Below are positions 3,916 to 10,819 of a stretch of 33,761 nt of DNA, piece by piece. The position numbers were made by a program, and so were the translations under genes. Where the stretch lies: assembly GCA_004356305.1 (NCBI GenBank), contig SMXJ01000111.1:1-33761 (forward strand), read 5' to 3'. The stretch's first letter is position 1. The number at the start of each line of letters is the position of its first letter. Source of the stretch: Bacteroidota bacterium (GTDB taxonomy: Bacteria; Bacteroidota; Bacteroidia; Flavobacteriales; Flavobacteriaceae). The notes below the pieces were generated by a model. The model was not told where the DNA came from, made no database searches, and saw nothing but the letters and a program-made list of their open reading frames with translations.

Positions 3916-4761
3916 ATGAAAAATTTAATTCTATTAGTTTGTGTAGGCTTATTTGCCATGGGAGCCTATGCCCAGATTAAGACCCCGGCACCTAGTCCAT
4001 TTCAGAAAATCGAACAAAAAGTTGGTTTAACTGATGTTACATTGGAGTACTCCCGTCCTTCTATGAAAGGGAGAAAGATCTTTGGAGGATTGGTTCCTCT
4101 TAATGAAATTTGGCGCACAGGAGCCAACGAAAACACAAAGATCACCTTTAGTGATGACGTGATAGTGGGAGATGTAACCTTGAAAGCAGGGAGCTATGCT
4201 ATTTATACCAAACCAAATACGGAAAATTGGGAGGTTATCTTTTATAGCGATGCAGGAAATTGGGGAACACCTCAAGAGTGGGACCCTGCTAAAGTAGCGG
4301 TTACTTTAAAGGTGCAAACCTATCCTATGCCTATGTCTATCGAGACGTTCACCATGACATTTGATAATCTCAAAAATGACTCTGCGGTCATGGGGATTCT
4401 ATGGGAAAATCTTTACGTTGGTGTACCGATAATGTTTAAAACTGACGAGTTGGTAACCGCAAGTATAGAAAATGCAATGAACGGCCCTTCTGCAGGAGAC
4501 TACTTCAATTCGGCGGTATATTACTTAGAAGCCGGAAAGGACATCAACAAAGCGAAAATGTGGATTGACAAAGCCATTGTGATGCGTGAAAAGCCAGCCT
4601 TTTGGTTCCACAGACAACAGTCGTTGATCTATGCCAAAGCCGGTGACAAAGAAGGGGCGGTGAAAGCTGCCCAAACTTCGTTAAAATTGGCTAAAGAAGC
4701 CGGTAACGATGATTATGTAGCATTAAATACCAAATCATTAAAAGAATGGGGATCCATGTAA
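3916..4761 (+). CDS. DUF2911 domain-containing secreted protein
   Basis: Signal peptide MKNLILLVCVGLFAMGAYAQ. DUF2911-like core (VTLEYSRPSMKGRKIFGGLVPLNEIWRTGANENTKITFSDDV...) followed by a TPR-like C-terminus. Confidence 0.85.
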   Translation: MKNLILLVCVGLFAMGAYAQIKTPAPSPFQKIEQKVGLTDVTLEYSRPSMKGRKIFGGLVPLNEIWRTGANENTKITFSDDVIVGDVTLKAGSYAIYTKPNTENWEVIFYSDAGNWGTPQEWDPAKVAVTLKVQTYPMPMSIETFTMTFDNLKNDSAVMGILWENLYVGVPIMFKTDELVTASIENAMNGPSAGDYFNSAVYYLEAGKDINKAKMWIDKAIVMREKPAFWFHRQQSLIYAKAGDKEGAVKAAQTSLKLAKEAGNDDYVALNTKSLKEWGSM

Positions 4762-5379: not shown

Positions 5380-7059
5380 TCAGCCGTTCCTTTTAGGAAG
5401 TACGTATTGCAACAAGATTGCTATACCCATAACAAGTAAACAGCCCAAAGCATTCAACCATAAATAGGGTATAATGTCTATATACCAAACATAGGCTACC
5501 GTTAGCTGTGTGATAATAGCCGCGATAAATGTTGCCTTGCCTTTTACAAACTTTATAAAAAAGGCCAGTAGGAAAACACCCAGTATATTTCCATAGAAAA
5601 TAGAACCGATAATATTGACCAATTGTATCAAATTGTCAAATAAATTGGCTACACACGCCACCAATATGGCGATCACACCCCAAAGCAGGGTAAACCATTT
5701 ACTCACGCGTACATAGTGCTTTTCATCCCGGCCTTCATTATTTCGTTTATACAGATCGATGGCTGTCGTAGAGCCTAACGCATTCAACTCACTGGCAGTT
5801 GATGACATGGCAGCACTCAGGATCACGGCCAGTAGAAGGCCTATCAATCCACGTGGGAGGTTGTTTAAAATAAAGTGAATGAACACATAATCCTTATCGT
5901 TGGTTTCAGCATTAGGATTGGCTTGTTTGATAAGTACTTTCGACCGGTCCCTTAGTTCGGTGTCAGTAGTATTTAAAGTTTGGATCTGTTTGATAAGCTG
6001 TTCTTTCTTCGCGGCGTCTTCGGTACGCGCAAATTTAAGCTGTACGGCTTTGATATCGGTCTCTAAGATCTGTTTTTCGGCTTGCAGATCGCGATATTGC
6101 TCTGCGTATTCACTGTTCATCACATTTTTTTCGGCGGCAGGATTAAAGTTCAATGGAGAGCTGTTAAATTGGTAAAAGACAAATACCATCACTCCAATCA
6201 ACAGAATAAAGAACTGCATAGGCACTTTTAGAAGTCCGTTCATGATTAGCCCCATCTGACTCTCTCGCACCGATTTCCCCGATAAATAACGTTGCACCTG
6301 ACTTTGATCTGTCCCAAAATAGGCGAGCATTAGAAAACTACCCCCTATGAGACCCGTCCAGATAGTATATCGATTCTCCAGATCGAAGGAGAAATCTAAA
6401 ACTTCCATTTTACCGTTGGCTCCTGCAATTTCCAAAGCTTTGGTAAAAGAAATGTCTAATGGGAGGTAATTGAGAATGATCAAAAATGCCATGAACATTC
6501 CGGCAAAAATGATCGCCATCTGATACTTTTGCGTAATGTTGACGGCTTTGGTGCCACCGCTCACAGTATAGATCACCACCAGTGTACCGATGATGATATT
6601 TAAATAGATCAAATTCCAGCCCAATACGGCTGAGAGAATAATAGCAGGCGCAAAAATGGTGATCCCTGCAGCCATGCCACGTTGCATTAAAAAGAAAATG
6701 GCGGTTAGCGTCCTGGTTTTTAGGTCAAAACGGCTTTCTAGAAATTCATAGGCTGTAAAGACCTTGAGTTTGTGGTAGAGCGGGATAAAAACCAAACAGA
6801 TCACCACCATAGCAATCGGTAATCCGAAGTAAAATTGTACAAAACCCATCCCATCATGAAAGGCTTGTCCGGGAGTGGATAAAAAAGTGATCGCACTCGC
6901 TTGGGTTGCCATTACACTCAAACCTACGGTCCACCATTTCGCTTCATTTCCACCTTTGATGTAATCGGTTATGTTTTTATTGCCACGACTTTTGTAGGTG
7001 CCATAACCCACAATAAATAGTAAAGTCCCAATTAAAATACCCCAATCGATCGTTCCCAT
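5380..7059 (-). CDS. Sodium:solute symporter (SSS family)
   Basis: 559 aa multi-TM: WWTVGLSVMATQASAITFLSTPGQAFHDGMGFVQFYFGLP..., GLLLAVILSAAMSSTASELNALGSTTAIDLYKR. Confidence 0.92.
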   Translation of the reverse strand: MGTIDWGILIGTLLFIVGYGTYKSRGNKNITDYIKGGNEAKWWTVGLSVMATQASAITFLSTPGQAFHDGMGFVQFYFGLPIAMVVICLVFIPLYHKLKVFTAYEFLESRFDLKTRTLTAIFFLMQRGMAAGITIFAPAIILSAVLGWNLIYLNIIIGTLVVIYTVSGGTKAVNITQKYQMAIIFAGMFMAFLIILNYLPLDISFTKALEIAGANGKMEVLDFSFDLENRYTIWTGLIGGSFLMLAYFGTDQSQVQRYLSGKSVRESQMGLIMNGLLKVPMQFFILLIGVMVFVFYQFNSSPLNFNPAAEKNVMNSEYAEQYRDLQAEKQILETDIKAVQLKFARTEDAAKKEQLIKQIQTLNTTDTELRDRSKVLIKQANPNAETNDKDYVFIHFILNNLPRGLIGLLLAVILSAAMSSTASELNALGSTTAIDLYKRNNEGRDEKHYVRVSKWFTLLWGVIAILVACVANLFDNLIQLVNIIGSIFYGNILGVFLLAFFIKFVKGKATFIAAIITQLTVAYVWYIDIIPYLWLNALGCLLVMGIAILLQYVLPKRNG

Positions 7060-7060
7060 A

Positions 7061-7189
7061 CTAGGCGTAACTTTTCATTATAAAATAGAACAAGACTATG
7101 TAGATCACATTGATAAGCAACACTAAGGTGTAGCTCTTTTTCCAGATGAATTTATCCACAGTTTCTTCGCTATGATGTTCTTTTTCCAT
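7061..7189 (-). CDS. 42-aa single-TM protein upstream of the SSS symporter
   Basis: Not in the ORF track. Reverse-strand translation MEKEHHSEETVDKFIWKKSYTLVLLINVIYIVLFYFIMKSYA*. Its TAG is one nucleotide from the symporter ATG (TAG-T-ATG). Confidence 0.75.
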   Translation of the reverse strand: MEKEHHSEETVDKFIWKKSYTLVLLINVIYIVLFYFIMKSYA

Positions 7190-7223: not shown

Positions 7224-7315
7224 TTCACTATTCACTATTTCCGCCTTTGTTACACTTCGGACGGACAAGCACTATTCACGTCTCATATCTCACATCTTAA
7301 ATCTCACTACTCATT
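7224..7315. repeat. Degenerate heptamer tandem repeats
   Basis: TTCACTA TTCACTA (7224-7237), then TCTCATA TCTCACA TCTTAAA TCTCACT ACTCATT (7281-7315). The array overlaps the PIG-L stop codon (7307-7309). Confidence 0.6.
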
Positions 7316-9814
7316 TCCCAAAGATAATAAGTTAGCAAACAATCGATATGCGCCCGATACACCTGCCGGTAATTCTCTAAAAAAACTTAATCCCGTATAC
7401 ACATAATACCCTTTTCCATAGCTCGCTATGAGTAGGGAACCTTGGGTTTCTGGGTATTCTTTGTCATGCATCCCTAAGATAGGGGTGAATTCCGGCGCCC
7501 ATTCGTTCGGGAAATACAATCCGCGTTCTTGGACCCAACCTTCAAAATCGGATTGAGTGATCTTATTGGGTCGGTTAAGTGCGGGATGTTTTGGCGCAAG
7601 AATGGTTACCTCTGAAAATTCATCTGTTACACGGTCGCGGGATAATTTCAAAGGATAGGGTGCCAGGTCGGTTGTTAACAATCTGTGACTCGTATTATAT
7701 TGAAGTAACAGTGTGCCACCGTTGTAAACATATTCGTTCAATTGTGGTTGTTTGAATTTTAGTTCAGCTACCGTATTGTAAGCTCTAATTCCTACAACAA
7801 CGGCATCGAATCTCTTGAGGTTTTCTGCCGAAATTTCCGAAGGAATTATAGTGGTAACGGTATATCCGATCTGCTTCAAACTCTCCGGAATCGCATCTCC
7901 GGCGCCATTGATATATCCAATGTTCTCTCCTCGCTTTTCAATGGGGATACGTACTACTTTGGCCTGCGAAGGCATTAGAACACTTTGAAATGGAATGTGG
8001 TCGTAATCGATAGTGATCAATTCCTTATCATGATAAGTATCGCCCACCTGAAGCAATGGTTTGATATAGCCTTCACTTTGGTCTTTGGGAGGTGTAATGG
8101 TAAAGACAACCGTTTGTGTAGTACCTTTTGGGCCTATTGAAAAGGTATGTTGCGAAGGTGAAACCACCCAACCTTTAGGGTGCTGTAAATTCACCGTCCC
8201 GGTAATATTTTCGCGACCCGCCTTTACGATCACCGGAATTTCCCTCGGCGTTTCATCGGAGAATATCAATACTTTTTCCGGGATGGAGGAGGTCACTTCC
8301 GGAAGGACCTGGAACGGACGATATACTTCACCCTTTACGGGATCATTGAATTTATATACGATGTTTTTTATAATACTTATTTCCTTACCTGCGATCGATA
8401 GATTGAATTGAACAGGAAACCGCTGAGTCTGCTCGGGCAATCCAATCAGGTCTTTATCATCCACCCGATACATTCCTAATGTACCTGTGACCTTCAACCA
8501 ATAAGGAGCACTAGTTTCTGAAACATTAAAGGTTTGATCTGTGCTTAATATGGAATGTTTTTTATTTTCTGAAAGTGGCGTAGGAACAAATTGGGAAGGA
8601 AATTGGATGACCGTCGAACTGATCGAATTGAGCTGCATGGTCACTTTCGACCGATTAATTACCTCGACTGAAACGGTTACATCACCTTTTGGAGACACAC
8701 TTTGCTGGTCTGCCACCGCCTCGAGGAACAAACCGGAACAATCTAAGATGAGTTGTTTTATTTCTTCCGTTTTAATAGCTTTCCAATGATCATCTTTCAA
8801 ATCTTGAATCAATTCATAGGCCTCCATCAATTGAGGAACAACTAAGGATGGATCGGTAAAATCGAAGTCTTTCTCGGCTTGGGATAAGATATTTCCTATG
8901 GTGGTACCCCCTTCAACACGAGACCAGCTAGTGTTGATCCCGTCAAACAAATTGGATCTGTCTTGTGGAAAATCGCCTTTTAAGAATTCAAGATATTCGG
9001 TTTGGCTGCCACGGCTTCCTGTGCTGCCAAAGCCCTGGGATTTATGCATACTACTACTCAGGGAAGCAATTTCACCATTGGACAGCCCCAGGCTTGGATA
9101 GTAGCCTCCGGTTTCTATTTCTACGAGGTTGGATTTGTCTGCTTTTTCGAAATTTTCTCTACTTCCATAGAACCACCAGGAGGTGTTAAAAAACAGTCTC
9201 TTGGGTTGCCATGTTCCATATTGTTTCGCTGTTTCAGTAAACTTACTTGAATCACTAACCAGATCAAAAGCTTCGAAGCTCAGCATAGCCGAAGAGGTAT
9301 GGTGTCCATGTGTGGATCCTGGGTTGCGGTGATTGAATCTGTTTATAATAATGTCCGGCTTAAATTTTCGTATAGCCCGCACTACATCGTTCATTACTTC
9401 CTCCTTGTTCCAGATAGTGAGTGTTTCATCGGGGTGCTTGGAATATCCAAAATCATTGGCGCGTGTAAATAGTTGGCTTCCGCCATCGATACCACGAGCC
9501 GCTAATAACTCTTGGGTTCGTATCACACCCAATAATTCTCTGATCTCCGGTCCTATCAAATTTTGTCCTCCATCGCCTCGGGTCAATGATAAATAAGCGG
9601 TGCGCGCTTTAACTTCATTAGAAAAATAGGAAATGAGACGAGTGTTTTCATCATCCGGGTGGGCACCTATGTATATGGCCGATCCCAGGAAATTCAGCTT
9701 TTGTAAATTGTGATGGATTTCAGATGCTGATAACTTTTGGGGCTTTTGAGCGAAAATAGCGGATGATAAGAGGTATGCTGCTAAAAAATGAAAAAATAAT
9801 TTTTTAAAAATCAC
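7307..9814 (-). CDS. Secreted PIG-L (LmbE-like) family deacetylase, multidomain
   Basis: 835 aa. GTG start and signal peptide FFHFLAAYLLSSAIFAQ. Zinc motifs AHPDDE and GSTHGHH. C-terminal NEW3-like Ig segment and a GATase-like Rossmann segment (RFDAVVVGIRAYN). Confidence 0.9.
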   Translation of the reverse strand: MIFKKLFFHFLAAYLLSSAIFAQKPQKLSASEIHHNLQKLNFLGSAIYIGAHPDDENTRLISYFSNEVKARTAYLSLTRGDGGQNLIGPEIRELLGVIRTQELLAARGIDGGSQLFTRANDFGYSKHPDETLTIWNKEEVMNDVVRAIRKFKPDIIINRFNHRNPGSTHGHHTSSAMLSFEAFDLVSDSSKFTETAKQYGTWQPKRLFFNTSWWFYGSRENFEKADKSNLVEIETGGYYPSLGLSNGEIASLSSSMHKSQGFGSTGSRGSQTEYLEFLKGDFPQDRSNLFDGINTSWSRVEGGTTIGNILSQAEKDFDFTDPSLVVPQLMEAYELIQDLKDDHWKAIKTEEIKQLILDCSGLFLEAVADQQSVSPKGDVTVSVEVINRSKVTMQLNSISSTVIQFPSQFVPTPLSENKKHSILSTDQTFNVSETSAPYWLKVTGTLGMYRVDDKDLIGLPEQTQRFPVQFNLSIAGKEISIIKNIVYKFNDPVKGEVYRPFQVLPEVTSSIPEKVLIFSDETPREIPVIVKAGRENITGTVNLQHPKGWVVSPSQHTFSIGPKGTTQTVVFTITPPKDQSEGYIKPLLQVGDTYHDKELITIDYDHIPFQSVLMPSQAKVVRIPIEKRGENIGYINGAGDAIPESLKQIGYTVTTIIPSEISAENLKRFDAVVVGIRAYNTVAELKFKQPQLNEYVYNGGTLLLQYNTSHRLLTTDLAPYPLKLSRDRVTDEFSEVTILAPKHPALNRPNKITQSDFEGWVQERGLYFPNEWAPEFTPILGMHDKEYPETQGSLLIASYGKGYYVYTGLSFFRELPAGVSGAYRLFANLLSLGNE

Positions 9815-9904: not shown

Positions 9905-10819
9905 TTATAACGAAAGAGAATCCCGCAATCGCAAATATTTGTTACTGTTCTGTCCCCAATATGCTGTTTTTAAACGTTTCATTTTCACCGCTGTTGTAAT
10001 GAGTCCATTGGCATGTGTTTCTTCCCAACGCTCGATGGTGTATGGAAAATCACTACTGAAGTATATTTTCAATTCTCTTTTTAGACCCTGGTAGGTAAGC
10101 GTGTAAGTGGAAATAGAATCCCCCTTCACTAAATTTCCGGAAGCCTTGTGCGCTGCAATTTTTCGATGACTCATCCTGAAATATTCGAAGCTAGGCAAAA
10201 TCGTAATTTCTCCCGTTGGCAGTTCTTCGGGATTCATTCGTATACGGTTCCATAATTCACTTTCGAGCCAGGACTTGGGCATGATTATTTCCTGGTCTGC
10301 CTCACCTTCAAAATAGGAGTGGACCTCAATTTCAAAACTCTTTTTATTATTGAGCTGTAAATATACTTGTCCGCACCATTCCTGTACGGAGTGTGTTATT
10401 TTAAGTGCGTGACCGGTCGAATTAACAGGGCTGAATGTACTCGTCATTACTGAATATGGATATATCCCTGTGAGATATTTTTTGGTAATGTTTAATTTGA
10501 GAACAGGAATGTTCTCTTCCGAATATTGATTTGCCTTTACCTGTACTTTGGGTAAGAAGTCTTCAGTTACAAAAACGGTTACCGAGGTGCCGTTGCGCAA
10601 CTCTCCATATCGTTCTTGAGTAAGTTTATAGGACGTAATTTCGGCGACCCCCTGATACCAATAGTCTTTAAAATCGTCGGAGATGTTTCTGTAATGGGAG
10701 GATTTCGTGCCTTGATCAGGTTCTAAATCAAAAGCTAGCGAGTCCTTTTCCGAAGAATTACAGGCCATTAAAAAAGAAAATGTTATCGATAGTATGGAAA
10801 CAAGACGTATAGTTTTCAT
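9905..10819 (-). CDS. Conserved lipoprotein of unknown function
   Basis: Lipobox-like LMAC within MKTIRLVSILSITFSFLMACNSSEK. Downstream of maf on the same strand. Confidence 0.75.
   Translation of the reverse strand: MKTIRLVSILSITFSFLMACNSSEKDSLAFDLEPDQGTKSSHYRNISDDFKDYWYQGVAEITSYKLTQERYGELRNGTSVTVFVTEDFLPKVQVKANQYSEENIPVLKLNITKKYLTGIYPYSVMTSTFSPVNSTGHALKITHSVQEWCGQVYLQLNNKKSFEIEVHSYFEGEADQEIIMPKSWLESELWNRIRMNPEELPTGEITILPSFEYFRMSHRKIAAHKASGNLVKGDSISTYTLTYQGLKRELKIYFSSDFPYTIERWEETHANGLITTAVKMKRLKTAYWGQNSNKYLRLRDSLSL

Follow-up and report, generated by a model that had tools for sequence, protein, structure and literature searches.

A 42-residue protein with a single transmembrane (TM) helix, encoded directly before a sodium:solute symporter (SSS) gene, is likely to be an accessory (β) subunit of that symporter, packing against it by a conserved helix face and acting as a stabilizing scaffold. 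Somewhat less certain, and still probable, is that the unnamed family of 33-45-residue single-TM proteins around it forms a near-constant β subunit of a Bacteroidota SSS clade, representing an independently evolved MAP17-type arrangement within a PIG-L-symporter module. The relevant features of the window (the whole 33,761-nucleotide stretch of DNA that was analysed) are as follows:

5380..7059, minus strand: 559-aa sodium:solute symporter of the SSF/SSS type; among solved structures closest to SMCT1/NIS/SMVT/SiaT; helical-hairpin insert at residues about 300-388
7057..7063, minus strand: coupling junction, with the TAG stop at 7063-7061, one T at 7060 and the symporter ATG at 7059-7057
7061..7189, minus strand: candidate small subunit of 42 aa, with one TM segment (about 20-38) inside a helix covering 9-41; the N-terminus, rich in K/R, is predicted to be cytoplasmic and the C-terminus periplasmic
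7307..9814, minus strand: PIG-L family deacetylase of 835 aa, secreted, with an AHPDDE motif and an N-terminus resembling a signal peptide; its gene usually lies next upstream of the small one

The Small Open Reading Frame and its Junction with the Symporter

The small ORF runs from an ATG at 7189 to a TAG stop at 7063-7061 and is translated as MEKEHHSEETVDKFIWKKSYTLVLLINVIYIVLFYFIMKSYA. The first-pass annotation of this DNA gave its sequence and coordinates exactly and left out the strand, which is the minus strand (7189 to 7061); the plus strand of 7061-7189 contains no open frame. Read in this direction, the TAG-T-ATG spacing to the symporter start is as described there, and the coupling of the ORF to the symporter is supported. 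Of 130 loci in the class and phylum set, 72 have a stop that overlaps the symporter start by exactly 4 nt, and this overlap is the commonest arrangement outside Flavobacteriaceae. The small protein and the symporter are probably co-translated from the same mRNA through the coupled stop and start codons.

Conservation and Selection

With the 42-aa sequence alone as the query, a search recovers relatives of the small ORF from every genome of the genus (9/9) and from 316 of 400 sampled Flavobacteriaceae genomes, which represent 197 of 237 genera. An alignment of 35 members shows W16, N27, Y30, and F34 to be invariant. Over 75 independent nearest pairs, dN is 0.18 and dS 1.29 (dN/dS 0.14), and pS and pN are 0.616 and 0.160, with pN below pS in 75/75. 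Because of this ratio, and of its direction in every pair, the small ORF is a real protein-coding gene under purifying selection. The coding status proposed from the sequence, for which a dN/dS calculation had been suggested, is borne out by this value and by conservation across the phylum. An ORF of a mere 42 codons might arise by chance in non-coding DNA, and the same phylum-wide conservation and selection already refute that explanation, whose probability is close to nil.

Anatomy of the Small Protein

The AF2 model consists of one helix spanning residues 9-41, with a pLDDT of about 94 over residues 21-40, in agreement with the single TM segment first assigned. The conservation moment has its maximum at exactly 100 degrees per residue, a value that 0/5000 shuffles reach, and the conserved positions line one face of the helix, W16-Y20-V23/L24-N27-Y30/I31-F34-M38. 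The W/Y/F positions are kept across classes. The small-protein family typically measures 33-45 aa. Lysines and arginines average 2.3 around W16 and 0.5 after M38; by the positive-inside rule, this excess of positive charge toward the N-terminus predicts an N-in/C-out topology.

These features bear on whether the peptide has a function at all. The tight stop/start coupling, and the prevalence of 4-nt overlaps outside the family Flavobacteriaceae, would also suit a cis-acting leader: translating it would open or target the mRNA for symporter synthesis, and the peptide itself would be functionless. Purifying selection on the amino acids, the retention of W/Y/F positions across classes and the concentration of conservation on one helix face all argue against a leader, and so do four loci (L115, L224, L241, and L257) that keep the ORF despite the tens of bases separating it from the symporter. 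A functionless leader is thus quite improbable, and a functional membrane protein is the preferred reading.

Linkage to the Symporter across Bacteroidota

The gene order PIG-L, small ORF, SSS was found in 37/37 of the first loci read, with the symporter immediately downstream of the small ORF. Later surveys were queried with the symporter, not with the small protein, in order to make absence visible. Directly in front of the symporter, the profile finds the small ORF in 79 of the best 80 loci from genomes of named species; in the 80th, from Aquimarina megaterium (L115), reading of the sequence reveals MEKKDEKREWKKLYSAVLIANAVYILLFYFITNSYS about 50 nt upstream, which brings the count to 80/80. 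In a class-wide sample the profile search detects the small ORF in 98 of 120 symporter loci. Inspection by eye adds one locus of this sample in which it lies about 190 nt upstream and three with a plausible divergent form, and one further locus is cut by the contig end. Thirteen loci from other classes of the phylum also carry the small ORF. Outside Flavobacteriaceae its common form is KPPxFKSWKxxYxxVxxxLxxLIxLFYLFTxxFS.

The first-pass annotation had named a frame unconserved upstream of orthologous symporters as the outcome that would speak against it; instead, the surveys find the frame beside the symporter throughout the phylum. A profile search of the 2.0 Mb of fetched loci returns 288 hits in 288 loci, one in each. 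The small ORF is absent from beside the four other SSS genes of the same genome, and from two paralogous SSS loci (L289 and L290).

A different SSS subgroup, with the N-terminus MHWIDWxVLxAFLAYTxWDG, occurs in four loci of family f98, which lies outside the class. A distinct version of the small ORF, MEENTDNTNWNRTYWIVFIWGIVCVILFWIFTAIFNQP, accompanies it, with no PIG-L match upstream. Since this subgroup also has a small ORF, the small-subunit family may extend to further SSS clades.

The PIG-L Neighbour

Linkage alone is ambiguous as to the partner of the small protein, because 74 of the 80 named loci also contain a neighbouring PIG-L gene upstream. This neighbourhood would allow the small protein to be a membrane anchor or partner of the deacetylase. 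In six Tenacibaculum genomes, however, PIG-L is encoded elsewhere and the small ORF still precedes the symporter; the surroundings of the relocated PIG-L, which is 59-60% identical to the window protein, yielded no small ORF. In the f98 loci, too, the small gene and the symporter occur together with no adjacent PIG-L. The relocation largely refutes a partnership with PIG-L, which is left with a very slight probability. As the small gene stayed with the symporter when PIG-L moved, its partner is this particular symporter clade; its genetic linkage (80/80 and 98/120) is specific to the transporter, as expected of an accessory subunit of an SSS protein.

Across the family the PIG-L proteins share about 50% identity or more, and their genes almost always lie beside that of the symporter. 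Together PIG-L and the symporter form an apparent deacetylase-symporter module of Bacteroidota, so far unnamed. Judging from linkage and family membership, PIG-L is likely to convert an N-acylated substrate in the periplasm into a product that the symporter imports. Two further genes are found around the module. One codes for a DUF2911 protein (window 3916-4761, plus strand), lies on the opposite strand and is conserved as a neighbour in 55 of the 80 named loci. Upstream of PIG-L lies the gene of a 304-aa lipoprotein-like protein (window 9905-10819, minus strand), which matches no Pfam family and has same-strand relatives in 34 of the 80.

Loci without the Small ORF

All six sampled loci of genus g306 contain the symporter with no small ORF detected beside it; PIG-L is within the fetched stretch in three of them. 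In some g306 loci PIG-L directly precedes the symporter, and the genus amounts to a natural knockout of the small ORF. Nine other loci (L191, L193, L232, L259, L261, L264, L267, L270, and L285) likewise have no recognisable small ORF next to the symporter. In g306 and in these nine loci, the symporter can apparently do without the small gene. The "obligate" subunit initially suggested is therefore too strong a description: because some lineages are without it, the small gene is near-universal rather than strictly obligate.

These lineages would also be compatible with a regulator of the symporter (e.g., one affecting its stability, or a conditional inhibitor) in place of a stoichiometric subunit. 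Many bacterial single-TM proteins of under 50 aa modulate larger membrane complexes, which adds to the case for regulation. On the other hand, the small gene keeps the same position beside the symporter throughout, unlike a gene under separate regulation, and it is retained across the phylum. A regulatory role is accordingly judged unlikely, albeit the least unlikely of the alternatives considered here, and a subunit is favoured.

Relation to Known Accessory Subunits

Small membrane proteins whose genes adjoin an SSS gene are known from three systems: YjcH/DUF485 with ActP, YhdT/DUF997 with PanF, and DUF4212/Na_symport_sm with VC_2705-type symporters. These known small subunits are about 80-105 aa long and have two TMs. 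The present system resembles them in having a small membrane protein gene directly beside that of an SSS symporter, but its product, at 33-45 aa and with one TM, differs in size and architecture. When 45 members were compared with Pfam and NCBIfam, no family was matched, and DUF485, DUF997, DUF4212, and TIGR03647 gave nothing at E ≤ 0.1. The family profile has no match among PDB sequences at E ≤ 1. Weak Pfam/NCBIfam matches (DUF6366, TMEM234, ABC2_membrane_2, and others) lie far under the cut-off and differ between members, and were set aside as chance TM matches. The unlikeness to the known SSS small-subunit families, noticed at first sight of the sequence, thus holds for both profile and TM number.

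In other bacterial membrane complexes, single helices of 30-50 aa such as CydX, AcrZ, and KdpF pack on a large membrane protein: an oxidase, an RND pump, and a P-type ATPase, respectively. The Pfam scan reveals no sequence relation of these helices to the small protein.

A closer parallel comes from eukaryotes. MAP17 (PDZK1IP1) contacts TM13 of human SGLT2 through a single TM and has been termed an essential auxiliary subunit (PMC10803289). MAP17 is described as essential both to activity and to surface expression or stability, with roles in folding, in localisation, and as a fixed scaffold (PMC10803289). The small protein would likewise be a single-TM accessory protein of an SSS (SLC5) transporter. 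No sequence similarity to MAP17 was found (no Pfam match, and none in PDB at E ≤ 1). The two systems also differ in that MAP17 is encoded separately, in a eukaryote, and has an SGLT-type partner, whereas the symporter here is closer to SMCT1/NIS/SMVT. Because no Pfam/NCBIfam family or PDB sequence is matched, the small protein, as judged by sequence, belongs neither to the known SSS small-subunit families nor to MAP17; it probably works like them. No description of the operon or of the small-protein family was found in the open-access literature.

The Symporter and a Proposed Mechanism

The symporter belongs to the SSF family (PF00474, 135.8 bits against a cut-off of 22.8) and also matches TIGR00813 (229 bits, cut-off 184). 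A PLSDB search for an annotated relative returned none. Its clade carries a charged insert of roughly 90 aa (residues about 300-388) that remains unaligned to the solved SSS relatives. The insert is modelled as a two-helix hairpin (319-345 and 349-380) with a pLDDT of about 90, within a model whose remainder is of moderate confidence (mean pLDDT 68). Possibly the insert is periplasmic, and PIG-L or a different partner could be in contact with it.

In the proposed mechanism, the small protein would be synthesised immediately ahead of the symporter, probably on one shared mRNA by way of the coupled stop and start, and would insert in an N-in/C-out orientation. The face W16 to M38 would then pack against the symporter. 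Most likely it would serve as a fixed scaffold helix that aids folding, membrane retention, or cycling of the symporter, comparable to MAP17 on SGLT2. The periplasmic PIG-L probably prepares the symporter substrate and would not be the partner of the small protein.

Coevolution was also analysed. In a mean-field DCA of 169 pairs (Neff 69), the top inter-protein pair is M38 of the small protein with V220 of the SSS (z 10.9), and 7 of 14 changes at small-protein position 38 fall on branches that also change at SSS position 220. This pair ranks 73rd of 8190 in a co-change test of all pairs, and no interface is claimed from it. Gene fusions of the small protein with SSS or with PIG-L are absent from the fetched loci.

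Implications

Bacterial SSS transporters are usually taken as one-chain machines, and when a review of prokaryotic SSS proteins was searched for terms denoting an accessory or small subunit, none of them occurred (PMC7918813). The small-protein family, absent from Pfam and NCBIfam, can be added to them directly. If the proposed subunit is real, a component may have been missing when these symporters were expressed heterologously, solved as structures, or studied through mutant phenotypes. It would also offer a bacterial, genetically simple model for the question posed by SGLT2-MAP17, namely what job a single accessory helix performs.
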